From the NCBI RefSeq assembly GCF_038725785.1, contig NZ_CP109796.1, positions 7,688,501-7,752,500 of the forward strand: a stretch of DNA of 64,000 nt. Direction: 5' to 3'. The translations under genes and the position numbers were made by a program. This document shows positions 18,601 to 64,000 of this stretch, piece after piece. The notes beneath the pieces are model-generated. The model saw nothing but the letters and a program-made list of their open reading frames with translations. It had not been told where the DNA came from and searched no databases. Each line of letters begins with the position of its first letter. The first letter of the stretch is position 1. Origin of the DNA: Termitidicoccus mucosus. GTDB lineage: Bacteria; Verrucomicrobiota; Verrucomicrobiia; Opitutales; Opitutaceae.

Positions 18601-21600
18601 GCGGTGGCGCTGGACTGGGAGAAGTTGATGGGCAGCGACCACGAGTTTACGGGGAAGCTGGGGTGGTCCCAGTAGAGGTGGCCGTCCACGTAGTCGTAGC
18701 GGGAGCGCAGGTCAACGAGCGCGGCGGCGACGGTGTTGTTGGCCGTGGTGATGAGTGCCTTGGAGCCGAGCGAGCGGATGTGGGTGGCCATGGCGTCGTT
18801 GGAGGCGCGGGCATTCTCAAAGACGAAGCGGTTCCAGTCGGCGCCTTTATAGGTGGTGCTGCCAGTCAGAGCGGTGTAGCGGGCCTTGAAGAGAGAGGAA
18901 ACCTCGGTCGGGATGGCGTCGGAAACGCTGTCGCGATGCGGCGGGTTTTCGTTGACGGGGCAGATGCCGATGAGCGCGGGGTCGGCGGCCCAAGTCAGGC
19001 CGGTGTAGGGGTTGGCGTGGGTGAGGAGGTTGGTGGCGAAGTTTTTCCAGGATTCGAGCGCGGCGTCGGAGATGGCGAAGAGGCCTTTGCAGTTGTTCTT
19101 GGCGATGCTCGTGGTGATGCCGGGGCCGAAGGAGGCTGCCTCGGTCTCGCTGAAGCCGCGCGAACCGTAGAGGTCTATGTTGATGTAGATGCCCTGCTGC
19201 TTGAGGGCGTAAAAGAGATAGTCGAGTTTTTCGAGACGGGCGGTGTCGAGGTCCCAAGAGTCGCCGCCGGCGGAGATGCTGCTGCTGACCAGATACTCGT
19301 CGAAGAGGTGGAGGCGGACGGTGTTGTAGCCGGAGCGGGCAAGGCGCGCGGCAAGCTGGTCGGCCTGCGCGTGGGTGTTGAGGAAATTGGCCATCTGGAC
19401 GATGTTGACGCCCCAGAAGCGGGCGCGCACGCCGGGGCGGTTTTCAAACTCGAAGTGGCCGGCGGCGGTGGCGTGGAGCGCGCCGTGTTTGCCGGCGGGG
19501 GCGTCGAGCAGGCCCTGTTGCGCGAAGTCGAAGACGCCACCCTCGGCGATATCGAGCGAGTGGGTGAGCGGCACCCAGCCGCCGTTTTCGGCGACGGTGG
19601 TGAAGGTGTCGTAATCGGGCGTGGGCGCGATGGTGATGGCGAGCGGAGCGGAGGTGGCGGGGTTGTGGTTTGCGTCGCCGGCCTTGGTGGCAGTGACGGT
19701 GATTTCGCCCGCGCCGGTGATGGTGACCTCGCCCTCCGCGGACACGGTGGCGACGGCGTCGGTGCCGGCGGTGCGCGCGAACGTGAGCGCGCCCGTGCCG
19801 GCGCCACCGGTGACGGCGAGCGTGAAGGGCGCGTCGGCGGCGGTTTTGCCGGTGACGGGCGTGATGACGAGCGCGGGCTGATCGGCTTTGGCGATGGTGA
19901 TGGCGAGCGGGGCGGAGGTGGCGGCGGCGTAACGGGCGTCGGCGGTTTTCGAGGCGGTGACGGTGATGTCGCCAGCGCCGGTGATGGTGACGAGGCCGGC
20001 CTCGGAAACGGTGGCGGTGGCGTCGGTGCCGGCGGTGCGGGCGAACGTGAGCGCGCCCATGCCGGCACCGCCGGTGGCGGCAAGCTGGAACGCGGCATCG
20101 CCGTATTTCTTGCCGGTGACAGCGGTGACGACGAGGGCGGGCTGGGCGGCTTTTGTGATGGCGAGGGTTTGCGCGGCGGTGGTCGTGCCGGCGTCGGTGG
20201 TGACGGCGACGGCGACGGTGTCGCCGAGGACGCCTTCCGGCACGGTGACGGTGAGCGAGGTCGCGCTGCTGGCGGTCACGGTAGCGGCGACACCGCCGAT
20301 GGTGACGGTGGTCACGGTCGCGCCGACGAGATTCGTGCCGGTGATGGTGATGCTGCCGCCGGGGTGGACGTCAGTCGGCGTGATGCCGGTAATGACCGGC
20401 GCGGGCGGCGGCACGGCCGTGATGGTCAGGGTCTGCGCGGCGGTGGTCGTGCCGCCGGCGGTGGTCACGGCGACGGCTTTGTTTTCACCGAGCACGCCCT
20501 CCGGCACAGTGACGGTGAGCGAGGTCGCGCCGGGAGCGGTGATGGTGGCGGCGACGCTGCCGATGGTCACGGTCGCGCCGTCGAGGTTCGCGCCGGTGAT
20601 GGTGATGCTGCCGCCGGGGGCGACGGAAAGCGGCGTGATGCCGGTGACGACCGGCGGGGGTGGCGTCACGGTAAGTGCCTGGCTGGCGATGACGGTGCCG
20701 CCGGCAGTGGTGACGGCGACGGCGATGCCGGTGGCGACGGCGGTCTCCACGGGCACGGTGACGGTGATGGAGGAGCCGGTGTTTTCGGTAATGACCGCCT
20801 CCTCGCCGCCGATGGTGACGGTGGCATCATCGAGATTCGAGCCGGTGATGGTGACGTTGCCGCCGGGATAGACGGTGAGTGGGTAAATGCTGGCAATCGC
20901 CGGCGCGAGCAGCGTGACGGTGAGTGTCTGGTCGGCAGTGACGGTACCACCGGCGGTGGTCACGACGACGGAGACGGCGCCGCCGACCGCGCCGGACGCG
21001 GAGGGCACGGTGACGGTGATGCTCGTGGCGGTATTGGCGGTGACGGTGGCGGTGACGCCGCCGATGGTGACGGTGGCGTCATCGAGATTCGTGCCGGTGA
21101 TGGTGATGCTGTCGCCGGGGTGGACGGCAGTCGGCGTGATGCCGGTGATGGCGGGCGCGGGCAGGCCGACGACGGAGGCCCAGGTTTTGCCGACGCGGAT
21201 GGCGTCAACGACGTGGTAGCGGCCGGTGCCCGCGTCAGGGTTTATGGCGATGAGGTTGTTGGTGCGGACACGGATGCCGGTGATGGCTGTGGAGCCGCCG
21301 GAACCGGGGGAATAAGCGCGAGTGATGGTAGTGACGGAGGAGTTTTCGTCGGTGGTCTTGGGGTTGCGCCAGACTTGGGCGGTGCGGTAGGCGGTGCCAT
21401 CCCAGCCGGTGTATTTGACGACAGCGAAGTAGGTCTGGCCGTAGGCGTGCGAGCCGACGCTGGAACCTCGGGCGTTGTTGACTTGGGGATGGAAGCCGCC
21501 ACTGTAGCCGACGGCGACAGCGGTGTCGGTGGTGGCTTTGGCGGAGTCCTTGCCGAACCAGCAGAGGAGGTTATTGCCGGAGGAGAAGGTGGTGTCGTCG

Positions 21601-54573: not shown

Positions 54574-56109
54574 ATGCTTCACCTTCCCGTCGATCCCGCC
54601 GCCCCCGCCAACGCCAATCCCGCCGCGCTGCGCGACTTCCTCGCGCAATGCCAGGCGCTCGCGGCCGCCGTCGGGCGGTCCCGGCTCGTCAGCATCACGC
54701 TCGAAGTCCCCGCGCTCGACCCGCTCGCCGTGCTCGAATCCATCTTCGAGTCCGGCGAGCGCCATTTCTACGCCGAGCGCCCTGCGGAGAATTTCGCCAT
54801 CGCCGGAGCCGAGGCCGTGCTCTCCTTTTCCGCGAGCGGCGAGACCCGTTTTGCCGACAGCCGGCGCTTCATCGACGAAACGCTCGCCGACGCCATCGGC
54901 GTCGGCGACCAAGCGGCGGCCTTCTCCGGCCCGCATTTCTTCACTGCGTATTCATTTTTTAATGACACCGAACCCGGCGAGCCTTTCGAATCCGCCGGCA
55001 TCTTCATTCCCCGCTGGCAGGTCGCCCGTGTTGGCGACCGCACCACCGCCGTTGCCAACTTCCTCGTTGCTCCCGACTCTCCCCTCGACGCGCTCGTCGA
55101 AAAAGTCTGGCGCGCGCATCAGAAATTCACGCGTTTCGAATACAACGTGGCCGGATCGGGTGGCGGCTCGAGTGGCGGGTTGTGTGGCACGGGCGACTCG
55201 CCCGTGCCACACGACCCGCATGGGCGGGACGCCCATGCCACTCAATCCGCCCATGCCGCGCCCGGCGAACTGCAAACCCGCGAACGGGCAGCCCTCGCCT
55301 CTGCCTCATCCACCTACCGCGCCGCCGTTACCCGCGCGCTCGAACTCATCGCCGACGGGGATTTCCAGAAAATAGTGCTTGCGCGCGCCAAGGACATCCG
55401 CGCCGCCGAGGCGCTGCACCCGCTGCGCGTGCTCAACGGGCTCCGCCAGCGTTTCGGGGACTGCTACAGCTTCTCCCTCGCCAACGGCCGCGGCCAGAGC
55501 TTCATCGGCGCGAGTCCCGAACGGCTCCTGCGCGTGCGTGACGGACGCCTCCTCACCGAGGCGCTTGCCGGCTCCGCCCGGCGCGGCGCGACCGCAAGCG
55601 AGGACGCCGCGCTCGGCGGCGAACTGTTGCGCAACGAAAAAGACCTGCGCGAGCATCGCCACGTGCTCGACTCCATCGTCCGCCGGCTCGCGCCGCTGGG
55701 CCTGCAACTCAGTTTTTCCGAAAAGCCCGGACTTCGCCGGCTCGCCAACGTCCAGCATCTGCACACGCCCGTCGAAGCCGCGCTTCCGCCAACCGTGCGC
55801 CTTCTCGACGCGCTTGCCCGCCTGCATCCCACGCCCGCGGTCGGCGGCACGCCGCGCGAAGCCGCGATCGCGCGCATCCGCGAACTGGAGGATTTCCCGC
55901 GCGGTCTCTACGCCGGGGCCATCGGCTGGATTGACTCGCGGGGCGGCGGCGAGTTTTTCGTCGGCCTGCGCACCGCGCTTCTCGAGGGCGACCGCGCCCG
56001 CCTCTACGCCGGCGCCGGCATCGTGGCCGGCTCCTCGCCCGAAAAAGAACTCGCCGAGACCGAGCTGAAATTCCAAGCCATGCAGACCGCGTTGCTGGGA
56101 GAAACTTAA
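54574..56109 (+). CDS. menF: isochorismate synthase (menaquinone pathway)
   Basis: 511 aa from MLHLPVDPAAPANAN; longer frames upstream run into metG. The chorismate-binding fold is clear: DFQKIVLARAKDI, FIGASPERLLRVRDG (about 312), TEALAGSARRG, EHRHVLDSIV, VGGTPREAAI (about 424), LYAGAIGWID and the late RLYAGAGIVAGSSPEKELAETE. It converts chorismate to isochorismate, the substrate of MenD. Residues about 195-230 (GTGDSPVP, GRDAHATQ) are encoded by two palindromic elements and have no counterpart in the family; they fall between the N-terminal region and the catalytic core, probably as a surface loop. Confidence 0.93.
   Translation: MLHLPVDPAAPANANPAALRDFLAQCQALAAAVGRSRLVSITLEVPALDPLAVLESIFESGERHFYAERPAENFAIAGAEAVLSFSASGETRFADSRRFIDETLADAIGVGDQAAAFSGPHFFTAYSFFNDTEPGEPFESAGIFIPRWQVARVGDRTTAVANFLVAPDSPLDALVEKVWRAHQKFTRFEYNVAGSGGGSSGGLCGTGDSPVPHDPHGRDAHATQSAHAAPGELQTRERAALASASSTYRAAVTRALELIADGDFQKIVLARAKDIRAAEALHPLRVLNGLRQRFGDCYSFSLANGRGQSFIGASPERLLRVRDGRLLTEALAGSARRGATASEDAALGGELLRNEKDLREHRHVLDSIVRRLAPLGLQLSFSEKPGLRRLANVQHLHTPVEAALPPTVRLLDALARLHPTPAVGGTPREAAIARIRELEDFPRGLYAGAIGWIDSRGGGEFFVGLRTALLEGDRARLYAGAGIVAGSSPEKELAETELKFQAMQTALLGET
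55183..55240. repeat. two palindromic elements in frame inside menF
   Basis: TGTGGCACGGGC / GCCCGTGCCACA (12-bp arms, 55183-55211) and GCATGGGC / GCCCATGC around GGGAC (55218-55238). The second stem is the same as the two copies in menD. Confidence 0.8.
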
Positions 56110-56328: not shown

Positions 56329-59250
56329 TCACCAGAGACGCCGGCAGCCGAAATTCAGACTCCAGGGGCGCTCGTAACGGGCAGCCTTGCTGTATTCATA
56401 ATCGAAATACAACTGGCTTCTCCCGCTTACGCGATACGTCGCGCCCACCCCGGCTTCCGCCCGCCAGCCGTCGTAGTCCGGAACGAACGCCTCTCCGGCG
56501 AGGCGAACCGCCCCGCCGGCGGTGTCGGTCTTCACCACGCCGAATTTGCCGTAGGGAATCCACTTCGAGTCCGCGATGCGCCGCCCGAAACGCACCAGCG
56601 CGCGGTATTGCGCCGCGCGGGCGCAGGCCGCCTTCACCTCGAAGGTCGCGTGGCCGGAACCGGAGCGGTAGGTCGCGCCGCGCAGCCACGCCACGGCGGC
56701 TTGCGCGGTGGGTTCGACCCACCAGCCATCCGCGCGTTCGAGGCGGCGGCCCGCTTCCAGGGACACGCCTTGAGCATCGCTGCTGTAGCCGCCCTGCACG
56801 CGGCCTCCATCGGCGGTGAGGGTGTCGAAGCGGTGTTTGTAGCGGTCGGCTTTCAGCACGAGGTCGGCGTGCCAGCCCGCGTCGTGCAGCCAAGTGCCGT
56901 AGAGTCCGGCGGTCAGGCCGTTGGTGTGGCCGGTGCCGCCCGCCCGGGAGAAGTCCCGCTCGATGCGGCCCAGATCCACAAAGCCGCCGAGGAGCGTGGT
57001 GCTCCCGTCGTGGCGGAAGGCTTTGTCGCCGCCAGTGGTCAGGCCGTAAACGTATTCGTCAAAGGCGCGTCCGGTGAGGCGGTTGTCCGCATTCAGCCGG
57101 TAACCACGGGCGCGCATCCAGATGTTGCCGGCGGGTTGCGGGGAGCGGGCGTCCGCGCCGCGATGTAGGGCGCGACCTTGCGTCGCGCCGCCCATGGCGG
57201 ACGGATTCACGTATTCGCGGCCTGACGCAAGGTCAGGCCCTACGGCGGCGGGCAGCAGTTCGGCGCGCACATCTCCCATGCGCAGGTAGAGCGCGTCGAG
57301 CGAGTAGTGCCAGTCGCGGCCCAGCATTGCGGCGGTGCCAATGATGGCGTCGGCGGTGGCGGAGAGGCCGGCGCGGTATAAATACCAGTTGGTCGCGGGC
57401 AGGCCGGTGATGCCGTCCGCGTCGAATTGCGCGCCGTTTTGCACGCTGTAGTCGTAGAGGCCGATGGTGGTCGTGCCGGAGAAAGCGGCCGTGCCGGCGG
57501 CGGTTTGCACCAACAGCAACGGAGGCTCGCCGCCCGTGGGCCTCGCGCCGGTGTCATTGATGATAATGCGGTGCGCGCCGCCGGCGGTGCCTCCGACAGT
57601 GAGCTGGTCGCCGGTATTGGCGGCGATGTCGGTGTTCATCACAAACGTGCCGCTGCCGGTCAAGTCGGCCACGATGTCCAGGGTGCGGAAGGCGCCGCCT
57701 TGGGCAAAGCGCACCGTGCTGTTGCCAAGCGTCAGGCGGGTCACCGCCGAGTCGGAGGTCATCGTCCAGTCGGTCGCGTCTAGCGTGACGTTGGCCACGT
57801 CGGCGGCGCGGTCGCCCAGCGTCATCGCACCAGTCAAATGCAGGCTGCTGCCGCTGAAGTTGACCGTGCCGTGGTTGTAAACACGGATGATGTTGCCGCC
57901 GTTGACGGTCGCCACGCGGTCGAGGGCGGCATCCAGCGCCGTGTTGAAATTTCCGCCGTTCAGGGCGCCGTCCACATTCACCAAATCCCGGCCCGCGCCG
58001 AGCGAGCCGCCGCGGACCGTGACCGTCGAATGGTCGTCCGGCGTGGTGGAACCCGTGGTGCGGGCATAAATGCCGTGGGATTGCGCGGAGGAAAGCACGG
58101 CGTCGGTGGCGATGACGTTGCCGTTGTCCAGCACCTCGAAAACCGCGGCGTCCGCGCCCCCGGTGGCAATGACGCCCCGGACGATCTCGACGGTGACGCC
58201 GGCATCCTTGACCCAGGCCCCGGCGGAATTCCGCCCGGTGGTGACAATCTCCGTGTCGGTGCTGACAATCCGCGTCGCAAACGTGCCGGCAAAATCCTGG
58301 TTGCCGTAAAGGTAGGTGCTGTTGCGCCGGGCATACAGGCCGTAATTCGCGCTGCCGGAGGCCGCGATGCGGCAGGCGTCCAGCGTCAACTCCGCGTAGC
58401 CGGCGACGTATCCGCCCGCCACCCCGTCGCCATGCAGCGTGAACGTGATGCCGCGCATGTGCGCTTCCGTGAACAAGCCGGGATTGGCGGAAGTGTTAAA
58501 CGCGCTGACCACGGCCACGCCATGCGACGCGCCGCCAAAGGTCTCCACCGTGCCGCCGTCCGCCTCCAGGTAACCGCCGTATTCCGACTGGTAGCCGCAA
58601 TTCATCGCGTCGGCGCGGGTGTTCAGGCCGTGAATGGTCAGGTTTCTGGCATAGACGTAACCCCGGAGATTGGTCTGGTTGCCAAAAGCCGTCACGCCCT
58701 TGCCCCAATAACCGTGGATGGTAATGTCACTGTCGGCGAGGTGCAGGGTGCCGCCGTTTCCGCCCAGCGCGCCGGTGCCGTTCGCGGAGCTGGAGGCAGA
58801 GGTGACAATGACCAGATTGCCCAGCCACGCCACGCTGCCCTCGTCCTGCACCCGGATGCCGTAATTGTTTCCGGTGGTCTTCTGGTTGTCGATGGTGCCG
58901 CTGCCGGCTGTCAGTTCGCCGCCATGCGCCACCATCAGGCCGTTGCTGCGCGCGGCGGTGGTCGCCCCTGCCGGTTTGTCCTTCACCACCACGTCAATCG
59001 TATCCAGGACCAGCTTCGTGCCGGTGCCGGTCACCTTGAGACCATAAGTCGCGTTCTCCGCGTTGCCGCCGCCGTTCACCGTGGCGGTCACGGCCAGCGA
59101 GGGCAAATGCGTCGTTCCCGAGTTGAACAAATAGGAGCCGTTTGCATCCGGCGACGCCTGTGCCTGCAAAAACGATGGCAAGAGCAGGCAGACGGGAAAA
59201 ACGGCCCGAACAAGCCGCCGGGTCTTTTTTGGTTTTATTGGATTTTGCAT
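56329..59250 (-). CDS. autotransporter with beta-helix passenger and outer-membrane barrel
   Basis: 973 aa from MQNPIKPKKTRRLVRAVFPV, giving a signal peptide ending near LQAQA; the frame extends upstream into the regulatory gap. The passenger (about 30-640) is a repetitive Gly/Asn/Thr/Val-rich right-handed beta-helix (for example GGTLHLADSDITIHGYWGKG). The barrel domain (about 715-973) starts around NIWMRARGYRLNAD and contains RWGRRIADS-like strands (RFGRRIADSKWIPYG) and a YFDYEYSKAARYERPW end. The junction (about 670-710) is encoded by two palindromic elements. An adhesin or surface structural role is likely, with no enzymatic motif seen. Divergent from the XRE regulator, which may control it. 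Confidence 0.85.
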   Translation of the reverse strand: MQNPIKPKKTRRLVRAVFPVCLLLPSFLQAQASPDANGSYLFNSGTTHLPSLAVTATVNGGGNAENATYGLKVTGTGTKLVLDTIDVVVKDKPAGATTAARSNGLMVAHGGELTAGSGTIDNQKTTGNNYGIRVQDEGSVAWLGNLVIVTSASSSANGTGALGGNGGTLHLADSDITIHGYWGKGVTAFGNQTNLRGYVYARNLTIHGLNTRADAMNCGYQSEYGGYLEADGGTVETFGGASHGVAVVSAFNTSANPGLFTEAHMRGITFTLHGDGVAGGYVAGYAELTLDACRIAASGSANYGLYARRNSTYLYGNQDFAGTFATRIVSTDTEIVTTGRNSAGAWVKDAGVTVEIVRGVIATGGADAAVFEVLDNGNVIATDAVLSSAQSHGIYARTTGSTTPDDHSTVTVRGGSLGAGRDLVNVDGALNGGNFNTALDAALDRVATVNGGNIIRVYNHGTVNFSGSSLHLTGAMTLGDRAADVANVTLDATDWTMTSDSAVTRLTLGNSTVRFAQGGAFRTLDIVADLTGSGTFVMNTDIAANTGDQLTVGGTAGGAHRIIINDTGARPTGGEPPLLLVQTAAGTAAFSGTTTIGLYDYSVQNGAQFDADGITGLPATNWYLYRAGLSATADAIIGTAAMLGRDWHYSLDALYLRMGDVRAELLPAAVGPDLASGREYVNPSAMGGATQGRALHRGADARSPQPAGNIWMRARGYRLNADNRLTGRAFDEYVYGLTTGGDKAFRHDGSTTLLGGFVDLGRIERDFSRAGGTGHTNGLTAGLYGTWLHDAGWHADLVLKADRYKHRFDTLTADGGRVQGGYSSDAQGVSLEAGRRLERADGWWVEPTAQAAVAWLRGATYRSGSGHATFEVKAACARAAQYRALVRFGRRIADSKWIPYGKFGVVKTDTAGGAVRLAGEAFVPDYDGWRAEAGVGATYRVSGRSQLYFDYEYSKAARYERPWSLNFGCRRLW
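57166..57189. repeat. palindromic element (GTAGGG type) in frame in the autotransporter gene
   Basis: GTAGGGCGCGAC, CTTGC, GTCGCGCC: the same layout as the elements at 10272, 14441 and 57219 with a different stem sequence, which shows compensating arm changes. Confidence 0.7.
57219..57243. repeat. palindromic element (GTAGGG type), second copy in the autotransporter gene
   Basis: GGCCTGAC, GCAAG, GTCAGGCC, CTAC; differs from the element in the GDSL-heparinase gene by one loop base. It is in the opposite orientation to the copy at 57166, 30 bp away. Confidence 0.75.
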
Positions 59251-59341
59251 GGTGGATGAGCGATTCGAAAAAAGACTGTTGTCGCCCGGGGTGCCGGGCG
59301 GAACGGCAGTGAAACGGAGAACTGCGCGGAACCCCGTTATC

Positions 59342-59353
59342 GCGTTACAACGC
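59342..59353. promoter_or_regulatory. putative XRE operator 1, GCGTTACAACGC
   Basis: Imperfect 12-bp palindrome preceded by TTATC, 92 bp upstream of the autotransporter start. Confidence 0.55.
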
Positions 59354-59395
59354 AAATCAATCCGCCGGATCCGCAAATCGATCAAGAAAAAAGTA

Positions 59396-59912: not shown

Positions 59913-61835
59913 ATGCCCACTGCTCCCGCCCTCGATTTTCGCAACACAAACGCTCTCTGGTGCTCCGTGCTCGCCGAGACCTTGCATCGTTGCGGCGTGC
60001 GGCACGCCGTGGTATCGCCCGGCTCGCGCTCGACGCCGCTCACGTTTGCCTTCGCGCGGCATGAGGGCATCGAGGCCATTCCCGTGCTCGACGAACGGTC
60101 GGCGGGATTTTTCGCGCTCGGTCTCGCCAAACAGCACGCGCGCCCCGTCGCGCTCGTCTGCACCTCGGGCACGGCGGCGGCGAATTATTTCCCGGCGGTC
60201 ATCGAGGCGCGCGAGAGCGGCGCGCCGCTTGTCGTCATCACCGCCGACCGTCCGCCCGAGATGCGCGAATGCGCCTCCGGCCAGACCATCGACCAGCAAA
60301 AGCTCTACGGCGCGCATGTGGTTTGGTATCACGAACTCGCCACCCCGGAGGCCACGCTCGAACGTCTCCGTTACCTGCGCCAGACTATCGCGCATGCCTG
60401 CGAACGCGCGCTCCATCCCGAGCCTGGTCCCGTGCACCTCAACGCGCCCTTTCGCGATCCGCTGCCACCGGTCGAGGACGGCAAAGTGTGCGCCGACGAA
60501 TGGCGTGAAAAAATCGGCGAGGAGTTTTTCGCGCATCTGGGTATGTTGCCTGGCATCGTGCGGAGTGGTTCCGGACCAAGTGACACGGGCGGCTCGCCCG
60601 TGTTGGATCGGGTGGCACGGGCGTCCCGTTCGTGCTTCGCGGAGCCGCCTTCCGAAAGCATGGGCGGGACGCCCATGCCACTCGCCCCGCATGGGCGGGA
60701 CGCCCATGCCACACAACCCACCCATACCCCCACGTCCACGCAACGCGGGCTCATCATCGCGGGCCCATTCACAGGCTGCGATCCCGCGGTCCATGCCGGC
60801 GCGCTCGCACGCCTCGCCGCGCAAACCGGCTGGCCCTTGCTTGCCGACGCGCTTTCTCCCGCCCGCCATCACGCGATGCCGCCGGAGGTCGTGCGCGTCT
60901 CCGCCTACGATGAAATCCTGCGCAATAAAAACCGCGCCCGCGAACTCACGCCGAAGTTCGTGCTCTGCGTCGGAGGCTGGCCGGTAAGCAAAATCCTCCG
61001 CTCCTGGCTGGACCAAACCCAGCCCGAAATCCTGCTTGCCGCCCCCACCGTCCGCAATCGCGATGCCCTCCACGGACGCACCCGCCACCTCGCCAGCGCG
61101 CTCGGCGCGGAGCTGGATTGTAACCTAATGGGTTATAATGACACCTCTGCCTCCGTCGCCACGACCGCCGCGTATCGCGACGCATGGCGACGCGCCGAGA
61201 CTGACGCCCGGGCCGTCCTCGACGCGGAACTCGACGCCATCGCTCCCGGCGACCTTTTCGAACCCGGGGCCGTCTGGCTGCTCGCGCGCCATCTGCCTGA
61301 ATCGACGCCGCTGTTCGTCGCCAATTCGATGCCCGTGCGCGACGCGGACTGTTTCTGGCCCGCGAACGACCGCCGTGCGCGTTTTTATTTCAACCGCGGC
61401 GCCAACGGCATCGACGGCACGCTCTCGACCGCGCTCGGCATCGCGCACGGGAACTCCCGCCCGGCGGTGCTGCTCACCGGAGATCTTTCGCTGCTCCACG
61501 ATACCAACGGGTTTCTCATCGGCGGAAACGCGCGCTTCCGCGGCAGCCTGACCATCGTGCTCATCAACAATCAGGGCGGAGGCATTTTCGAGCATCTTCC
61601 CGTCGCGTCGTTCGAGCCGCCTTTCGAGGATTATTTCGCCACGCCGCAACAAGTCGATTTCGCCCGCCTTTGCGAGGCGCACGGCGCCGGGCACATTCTC
61701 ATCCGCGACTGGGCGCAATTCGCGCAACTGATCGCGGCGCTTCCGCCCGCCGGTGTGCGTGTGCTGGAAATTCGCACCAACCGCAAAGCCGACACCGCCC
61801 GCCGCAAGGCGCTGCTCGCCCGGGCCGGCGGATGA
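59913..61835 (+). CDS. menD: 2-succinyl-5-enolpyruvyl-6-hydroxy-3-cyclohexene-1-carboxylate synthase
   Basis: 640 aa, longer than the usual 550-580 because of in-frame inserts. ThDP-enzyme fold: VVSPGSRSTPLTFAFA (about 38), IPVLDERSAGFFALGLAK with the ThDP Glu, TSGTAAANYFPAVIEA, then in the C-terminal domain FNRGANGIDGTLSTALGIA, the cofactor motif GDLSLLHDTNGFL (about 522) and INNQGGGIFEHLP. It joins isochorismate and 2-oxoglutarate in menaquinone synthesis. Residues about 222-275 (TGGSPVL, MGGTPMP, HGRDAHATQ) come from palindromic elements, and about 403-410 (CNLMGYN) from another palindrome. The core motifs are intact, so the enzyme should work. Confidence 0.94.
   Translation: MPTAPALDFRNTNALWCSVLAETLHRCGVRHAVVSPGSRSTPLTFAFARHEGIEAIPVLDERSAGFFALGLAKQHARPVALVCTSGTAAANYFPAVIEARESGAPLVVITADRPPEMRECASGQTIDQQKLYGAHVVWYHELATPEATLERLRYLRQTIAHACERALHPEPGPVHLNAPFRDPLPPVEDGKVCADEWREKIGEEFFAHLGMLPGIVRSGSGPSDTGGSPVLDRVARASRSCFAEPPSESMGGTPMPLAPHGRDAHATQPTHTPTSTQRGLIIAGPFTGCDPAVHAGALARLAAQTGWPLLADALSPARHHAMPPEVVRVSAYDEILRNKNRARELTPKFVLCVGGWPVSKILRSWLDQTQPEILLAAPTVRNRDALHGRTRHLASALGAELDCNLMGYNDTSASVATTAAYRDAWRRAETDARAVLDAELDAIAPGDLFEPGAVWLLARHLPESTPLFVANSMPVRDADCFWPANDRRARFYFNRGANGIDGTLSTALGIAHGNSRPAVLLTGDLSLLHDTNGFLIGGNARFRGSLTIVLINNQGGGIFEHLPVASFEPPFEDYFATPQQVDFARLCEAHGAGHILIRDWAQFAQLIAALPPAGVRVLEIRTNRKADTARRKALLARAGG
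60582..60712. repeat. cluster of palindromic elements in frame inside menD
   Basis: ACACGGGC / GCCCGTGT (60584-60604) and two copies of CATGGGC-GGGAC-GCCCATG (60659-60678 and 60689-60708). The same units occur in menF. The encoded inserts lie between the first and second domains. Confidence 0.8.
61119..61139. repeat. 21-bp in-frame palindrome, menD copy
   Basis: TTGTAACC, TAATG, GGTTATAA: matches the GH36 copy at 11546 in all but one base. Translated in different frames in the two genes. Confidence 0.65.
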
Positions 61836-62076: not shown

Positions 62077-64000
62077 TCAGCGTGTTTCGCTGGCGATTTT
62101 TGTATAAACGAGCCGCATTTCTCCAATCAGCCCGGATGGCAGCGGGCCGTATTTCCACGGGAAATAATCTCCGGGCTTGATCGTGGCCGGATCGGGATAA
62201 TGCGTCTGCATCGAGTTGGCCCACGTGAGGCGCCCGCCCTCGGGGAGCGTGGCATCGTAAAGGCAGCGGTTCACCCACGTGTTGGCCACCGTGATGGCGA
62301 GCGTGTTTTTGCCCTTTTTTATATAATCGGTAACATCGAGCTTGTAGGGCGGACGCCAGAGCGTGCCGACGGATTTGCCGTTGACCGACACTTCGGCGAC
62401 TTCGCAGACCTGGTCGATTTCGAGATAAACACGGATGCCGGCGGCGAGGTCTGACGCGGGGATGTCGAGATCCTTTGTATAAACCGCCGCGCCGGAATAA
62501 TGCTTCACTCCGGGCTCGGAGTTTTCCGTCCACGAGACGAGCTTTCCGAATTGCCGCGGTCCGGCCGGCGCGCCCCATTTGGCGTCGAAGGTGACCGTGA
62601 AGGGACCGGGGATGGATTTCGGCGCGGGAACGGCGTCTGCCGCCAAAACAACTTTCGAGCCGCCCGCCTTTTCGATTTCCAGTTTTCCGGGCGATGTGAA
62701 TTCGGCGGCGAGCCTGCCGTCGCGCGTCACAAAAAGGCGCGGCCCGGCGGATTTTGTCCGGGCTCCGGCGGTTTCTGCGGGGTTGGCCCGCAAAACAAGC
62801 CCGCCGGCGGGCTTGTCCGCAAGCGCGGCGATTTCGGGCGCGGACAGCGCGGATTTTTCGAGCACAAAATTCTCCGCGCGCCCTTTGTATTCGGAGCGGA
62901 TGACGGCGGGCGGGTGCACGATGCGACCGGAAGATTTCGCGGCGACGGCGACCTGTTTTCCGTTTATATACAAAGCAGGCGTGTTGTTTTTATAGACCAC
63001 GGCAACCTGCGTGTTGTCCGCCACGGGCCGGTCCCAGACGATGATGCTGTTGAGGTAGCCCGAGCCGTGCTCGAAGACGGCCACGGAGTTGCGCCCGACG
63101 CTCAGGCCGGCGCAGGCGTGCCGGTGGTCGTTTATCTTCAAGTGCATCTGTTCGGGATAGAGCACGAAATTTTCGTTGCCGCCTCCTCCGGGGGCGATGC
63201 CGGCCGCGGCGGCCTGCGTGAGCTTGCGGTCGCCCGCCGGGGAAACCGTGACGGCGAAGGTGAAGTCGCCCGATATTTTGGTGTTGTCGATCGGACCGGC
63301 GGAGGGCGTTTCGAGGATGTAGCCCGAGGACTTGCCCTTGTAGGAGGGGCGGATGGCGGCGGGCGGATGCACGATGCGGCCCGAGGGTTTCGCGGCGGCG
63401 GCGACTTGTTTTCCGTTTATATATAAAGTGGGAGTGTTGTTTTTATAGACCACGGCGACCTGTGTGTCTTCCGCCACGGGCCGGTCCCAGACGATGATGC
63501 TGTTGAAGTAGCCGGCGCCGTGCTCGAAGACGGCGATGGAATTTTTGCCCACGCTCAGGCCCGCGGCGGCGTGCCGGCCGTCTTTCAGTTTCTCGTGAAT
63601 GGGCTCCGGGTAGAGGACAAAGTTCTCGTTGCCGCCCATGCCCGGGCAGATGCCGGACGACGCGGCCTGCGTGATCTTGCGGTCGCCCGCCGGGGAAACC
63701 GTGACGGCGAAGGTGAAATCGCCGGTGATTTTTGCGTTGTCGACGACGCCTTCAACGGAGGGCTTCGGGAAAACCTCGCCGCCATCGGAAATGATTTTCA
63801 CGGCGGCGGGCGGCGGCGTTTTGTTTTCAATATTATTTTGAAATACCACAAAAACGCCTTCGAGTTTCCCAAGCGAGAGCGGGATGCGGGTGCAGCCGTC
63901 TTCCTCGACGGCGGCGGGGACGGGCTCGGTCTTTCCGCTTTCGGGATGCCAGAGGGAGGCGGCCTTGCCGGTGACGCGGAAGGACATGATGCCGGAGCGG
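62077..64000 (-). CDS. GH106-like alpha-L-rhamnosidase, C-terminal part, with two LamG-like inserts
   Basis: The frame is open through the right edge (RSGIMSFRVTGK), so the Met at 63987 is internal and the N-terminal catalytic part is outside. The visible start, SFRVTGKAASLWHPESGK, and the end (GPFTVTFDAKWGAPAG, LVSWTENSEPGVKHYSGAAV, VCEVAEVSVNGKSVGTLWRPP) are the C-terminal region of GH106-type rhamnosidases. Between them are two consecutive LamG-like units of about 140 residues (DFTFAVTVSPAGDRK, GLSVGKNSIAVFEHG, VAVVYKNNTPTLYINGKQV) that are nearly identical to each other even at DNA level. It probably removes rhamnose from pectin-like glycans; the inserts may bind carbohydrate. Confidence 0.8.
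   Translation of the reverse strand, partial: RSGIMSFRVTGKAASLWHPESGKTEPVPAAVEEDGCTRIPLSLGKLEGVFVVFQNNIENKTPPPAAVKIISDGGEVFPKPSVEGVVDNAKITGDFTFAVTVSPAGDRKITQAASSGICPGMGGNENFVLYPEPIHEKLKDGRHAAAGLSVGKNSIAVFEHGAGYFNSIIVWDRPVAEDTQVAVVYKNNTPTLYINGKQVAAAAKPSGRIVHPPAAIRPSYKGKSSGYILETPSAGPIDNTKISGDFTFAVTVSPAGDRKLTQAAAAGIAPGGGGNENFVLYPEQMHLKINDHRHACAGLSVGRNSVAVFEHGSGYLNSIIVWDRPVADNTQVAVVYKNNTPALYINGKQVAVAAKSSGRIVHPPAVIRSEYKGRAENFVLEKSALSAPEIAALADKPAGGLVLRANPAETAGARTKSAGPRLFVTRDGRLAAEFTSPGKLEIEKAGGSKVVLAADAVPAPKSIPGPFTVTFDAKWGAPAGPRQFGKLVSWTENSEPGVKHYSGAAVYTKDLDIPASDLAAGIRVYLEIDQVCEVAEVSVNGKSVGTLWRPPYKLDVTDYIKKGKNTLAITVANTWVNRCLYDATLPEGGRLTWANSMQTHYPDPATIKPGDYFPWKYGPLPSGLIGEMRLVYTKIASETR

Follow-up and report, generated by a model that had tools for sequence, protein, structure and literature searches.

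The closest described systems are the GH106 enzymes BT_0986 (5MQM) and RHA-P (6Q2F). In BT_0986, E461 and E593 are described as the catalytic acid and base and D458 and S459 as metal residues (PMC6828813). In marine Verrucomicrobiota, rhamnosidases with sulfatases around them have been described (PMC8857213). Among the papers of the collection searched, none was found that joins a GH106 rhamnosidase with a laminin G or concanavalin A-like domain.

Here we analysed a stretch of 64,000 nucleotides from Termitidicoccus mucosus (G000:C1:7688501-7752500, hereafter the window; G000 is its own genome), which contains the C-terminal part of a GH106 alpha-L-rhamnosidase gene (62077..63999, minus strand; 640 codons plus stop, from the ORF list and Pfam). 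The catalytic family, the aligned catalytic glutamates and the C-terminal jelly roll are common to this protein, BT_0986 and RHA-P. In contrast, the junction ahead of the jelly roll comprises 2 residues in 6Q2F and about 26 in 5MQM, whereas the alignments give about 390 in the window protein, where two LamG-like units are found. Our main reading, to which we assign a probability of roughly 0.8, holds that one LamG/ConA-like domain of a GH106 enzyme was duplicated in tandem before the species split from its congener, and that both copies were kept.

Enzyme family and insertion point

The rhamnosidase gene extends past the end of the window. The full gene (L009:1078-5925:-) encodes 1615 residues from a GTG and 1621 from stop to stop; translation probably begins further downstream, at an ATG ahead of a signal-peptide-like stretch. 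The rhamnosidase with the doubled LamG units is probably secreted, in an Opitutaceae-type bacterium. When the full protein was compared with Pfam, matches to Glyco_hydro_106, Laminin_G_3 and Glyco_hydro_2_N2 were obtained, and the 516 bits of Glyco_hydro_106 (cut-off 29) identified the GH106 catalytic region. In the alignment, with positions counted by hand, E551 and E688 of the 1615-aa ORF align with E461 and E593 of BT_0986, showing that the glutamates are kept, and D548 and S549 align with the metal residues D458 and S459. The protein is predicted to be a GH106 rhamnosidase and presumably removes rhamnose from polysaccharides. The C-terminal jelly roll (62248..62610, minus strand; residues 1439-1559), which is Glyco_hydro_2_N2 in Pfam, was recognised by the NCBIfam model rhamnoside_JR (NF045579) with 131.5 bits against a cut-off of 50. 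Compared with 6q2f it gave a Z score of 16.6 over 150 residues at 2.9 A.

The fold of the units was analysed with Pfam and with AF2 models. Laminin_G_3 scored 38.7 bits on the window part and 35.1 bits on the whole protein (cut-off 27.6). For the single unit of the one-unit relative L087, Laminin_G_3 was not listed by Pfam at E up to 0.01, which counts against LamG membership. The AF2 model of the unit pair (pLDDT 87, pTM 0.63) showed a jelly-roll fold with the same strand order in units A and B and a helix after B only. The 640-residue model had a pTM of 0.42 and was taken for the domain folds, not for the domain packing. Lectin-like folds were matched at Z 10-13, with PTX3 (pentraxin) at Z 13.0 over 147 residues and 2.9 A, domain 4 of the GH43 enzyme AbnA (5hon, listed under the title 'in complex with arabinot...') at 11.5-11.8 and CBM40 at 11.7, and the Foldseek list was headed by laminin LG4-5 pairs. 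AbnA domain 4 and CBM40, both LamG/ConA-like, have the jelly-roll fold in common with the units but only 10-17% identity among the matches listed. The LamG pair alone matched no PDB sequence at E up to 1.

The units are located between the end of the Glyco_hydro_106 domain and the C-terminal jelly roll. Residues 474-1030 of the query pair with 423-968 of 6q2f and residues 1421-1584 with 971-1129, and the approximately 390 residues between these two parts consist of both LamG units plus linkers. The Pfam domain order, the 6q2f alignment and the AF2 model all support the initial annotation in its placing of LamG-like units between the beta-sandwich parts of a GH106 rhamnosidase.

The tandem repeat

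Unit A, the first in the protein (63310..63738, minus strand), was matched by the unit profile over positions 1-143 with an E value of 6.8e-80; it is a jelly roll in AF2, a Laminin_G_3 match in Pfam, and has no C-terminal helix. Unit B (62857..63285, minus strand; positions 1-143, E 6.6e-79) was also delimited by the one-unit alignment and AF2 and is followed by a short helix region. Between them is an 8-residue linker, defined by the unit ends (63286..63309, minus strand). The copies are arranged head-to-tail with a period of 453 bp, the sum of a 429-bp domain (143 residues) and 24 bp of linker, which corrects the figure of about 420 bp given before. The tandem direct repeat was found at the claimed place by TRF (62896-63743, period 453, 1.9 copies, 84% matches, score 1251) as well as by a repeat search (62882-63181 against 63335-63634, 82% over 300 nt, spacing 453).

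Over the 143 codons, A and B have a DNA identity of 80.2% and a protein identity of 77.6%, with a dN of 0.157 and a dS of 0.517, so the units are not near-identical as had been claimed. The identity is patchy: within the unit, 30-nt blocks vary between about 0.63 and 0.97. The copies share exact runs of 42 and 37 nt, and the blocks with the highest identity fall on the VSPAGDRK and IVWDRPVA segments, as had been noticed. An assembly echo in the window was considered and rejected, since about 85 of the 429 positions are different between A and B and the same pair is present in a second species.

Age of the duplication

The two exact runs would be in line with a duplication that took place recently, in the lineage of the window alone, and was selected for multivalent binding, as the initial annotation had proposed. 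We regard this as very improbable. The congeneric ortholog in G001, a fragmented MAG, has the same two units, and a recent event would require that the G001 gene is misassembled. Between the window and G001, dS was 0.35 and 0.31 in the flanks, 0.32 for A-A and 0.41 for B-B, whereas A-B in the window reached 0.52. A clade of the two window units was rejected (p-AU 0.0026). The sites that separate A from B were then sorted: 19 are common to the window and G001, mostly at the unit end, and 11 are species-specific. Because the A-B dS is above the ortholog dS, the 19 sites are common and the window A+B clade is rejected, the duplication, as judged from these sequence comparisons, predates the split of the window species from its congener.

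The gene tree, computed without the units, was (one-unit G125a,(window,(G001,G127 fragment))) with SH-aLRT values of 98 and 99. The unit tree rests on 143 columns, and several of its forks are weak. Holding B of the window and B of G001 together was also rejected (p 0.017), which in our reading reflects conversion. A clade of all four units of the window and G001 gave a p-AU of 1e-5, but this value carries no information, because the nested G127 fragment had been left outside the clade.

The one-unit relatives align with B and run on into the helix region, so B probably keeps the ancestral position and A was added. The unit of G125a shares 80.7% identity with window B and 77.4% with window A. 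At the 19 separating sites G125a matches A at 10 and B at 6, and the assignment therefore relies on the position, on the helix and on overall similarity, not on every site.

A run test was applied to both species. In G001, A and B are equal at 35 successive variable sites (codons 28-57), a run reached in 0 of 5000 permutations, and the A-B dS of 0.28 is below the ortholog value. The same test in the window gave a p of 0.09 and was not significant. In G001, gene conversion probably replaced a part of B by the sequence of A; the tract could be a repeat misassembly in the fragmented MAG. The order of events was then probably as follows. An ancestral gene had one LamG unit, placed behind the catalytic part and ahead of the C-terminal jelly roll, and gained unit A in front of this unit. 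The gain took place in the last ancestor that the window species shares with its congener, after the one-unit ortholog had split off. Both copies have since been retained by purifying selection, and in the congener A probably converted part of B.

Relatives and numbers of units

Matches were found in 9 of the 57 relatives searched (own genome included), in 28 of 252 genomes of the family survey and in 36 of 384 genomes of the class sample, where up to 10 first-look candidates were scored per genome. Within these lists, neighbouring units in a common reading frame were observed only in the genes of the window, G001 and G004. In the close subfamily, 13 genes are complete, ten with one unit, two with two units (window and G001) and one with three (G004). 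For the G127 gene (L093), the contig stops within unit A, and this gene was left out of the unit counts. Each of the 22 distant GH106-type ORFs that were examined contains a single unit, three of them ending at the locus edge; several distant matches, among them those in G090, G091, G102, G144, G148, G153, G180 and G234, stayed outside the counts. The GH106-LamG proteins L087 (G125a) and the window-genome paralogs L010 and L011 have the architecture and the LamG junction in common with the window gene but contain one unit instead of two. Otherwise, the one-, two- and three-unit genes align over most of their length.

In the window's genome, the 640-aa query gave 27 matches, mostly via the C-terminal jelly-roll part, pointing to many related glycosidases. 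None of the 11 candidate stretches in viral contigs was a viral relative. On plasmids, 49 records matched the query; the best 20 of the 49 were mostly matches of the C-terminal part or, in Priestia, other proteins, and among these 20 one plasmid GH106 of Croceibacterium carries one LamG unit (54.6 bits).

The three-unit gene of G004 (L035; presumably Ereboglobus sp. PH5-10) resembles the window gene in subfamily, junction and the presence of several units. Its period of 173-176 residues includes the C-terminal helix region, whereas the window period is 151 residues, and this indicates a different duplication. The closest gene to that of G004 is the one-unit gene G125b. In the unit tree, the G125b unit pairs with the first unit of G004 (98/96), and a clade of the three G004 units was rejected (p 0.032). 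The tripling may be older than the G004/G125b split with a loss in G125b, or the units may have been reshuffled. Judged by breakpoints and unit tree, the G004 event is separate from that of the window.

Genomic surroundings

Directly upstream of the rhamnosidase gene, outside the window, the neighbouring gene encodes a sulfatase (146 bits with the Pfam model Sulfatase). It has a CxPxR at residue 102, which we take to be a formylglycine-type motif. A sulfatase next to a rhamnosidase would fit a sulfated rhamnose-containing glycan as the putative substrate. The sulfatase was also considered as a conserved partner. This was rejected: relatives are without the same sulfatase and the association is loose, with weak sulfatase matches of 25-29% near three genes (L089/L048, L090/L047, L054) among the 21 loci searched.

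Other repeats were observed in the window. A 22-base palindrome, part of a dispersed repeat, is present in two exact copies at 60658 and 60689 (region 60560-60740), in frame within the ORF 59913-61835 (plus strand), which is presumably menD-like; the protein is roughly 40-50 residues longer there than in the five relatives compared. The palindrome resembles the in-gene palindromic elements of Rickettsia. A third exact copy is found at 55218-55239. When up to one mismatch was allowed, the 22-mer was counted 23 times in G000, 21 times in G005, twice in G004, and 0 times in G001 and G002. At 19627-21145 there is a tandem array with units of about 249-264 bp and 73-82% matches, possibly repeated domains of a large protein. 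The 1018-aa ORF at 56329-59385 (minus strand) has a putative autotransporter-like look with a repetitive passenger.

Maintenance and possible function

We then asked how the two copies have been kept. Of 35 residues that are invariant in the ten one-unit genes, 34 are kept in each window unit, and both units depart at the same place. The dN/dS ratios from the pairwise values were 0.23 for A-A and 0.32 for B-B, next to 0.29 and 0.31 for the flanks. The stretch around AGLSVGxNSxAVFEHG is strongly conserved in all units. With 34 of the 35 invariant residues present in each, both units look maintained, and purifying selection acts on them as it does on the remainder of the gene. A neutral tandem duplication that persists without functional gain is unlikely in our view: it would agree with the 10 of 13 complete close genes that manage with one unit, but the invariant residues are kept in both copies at a dS of about 0.5, and a copy without use should have decayed or have been removed by inter-repeat recombination. 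Selection for multivalent binding, as proposed at first, finds no excess of dN/dS, and the conserved residues fit a use of the units but do not single out binding.

In the maintained pair, the LamG modules would bind the substrate glycan and the second one would add avidity or reach. Extra binding avidity from the second unit is plausible as an inference. The nearest folds include glycan-binding modules, yet a common fold alone does not imply function. Many LamG-fold domains are structural. The extra unit could be a structural spacer that sets the C-terminal jelly roll further apart from the catalytic part, with glycan binding lost or never present. The location of the modules at a junction spanned by 2 residues in 6q2f and the copy number of 1 to 3 in otherwise aligned genes are consistent with a spacer. 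Against it, the conservation of the AGLSVGxNSxAVFEHG stretch seems beyond the needs of a spacer, though core packing could explain it, and glycan-binding modules are among the nearest folds. We consider a pure spacer possible but doubtful.

In conclusion, the window gene shows an ordinary domain duplication in a modular glycoside hydrolase, which corrects the reading of a recent event. As a tentative extension, LamG units at a fixed GH106 junction in Opitutaceae might have been multiplied repeatedly, in independent events in the window genus and in an Ereboglobus, and partly homogenised by conversion, with the unit number as an evolvable setting of avidity or reach. The natural series of one-, two- and three-unit forms of one enzyme type would allow the effect of extra lectin-like modules on the activity towards polymers to be tested.
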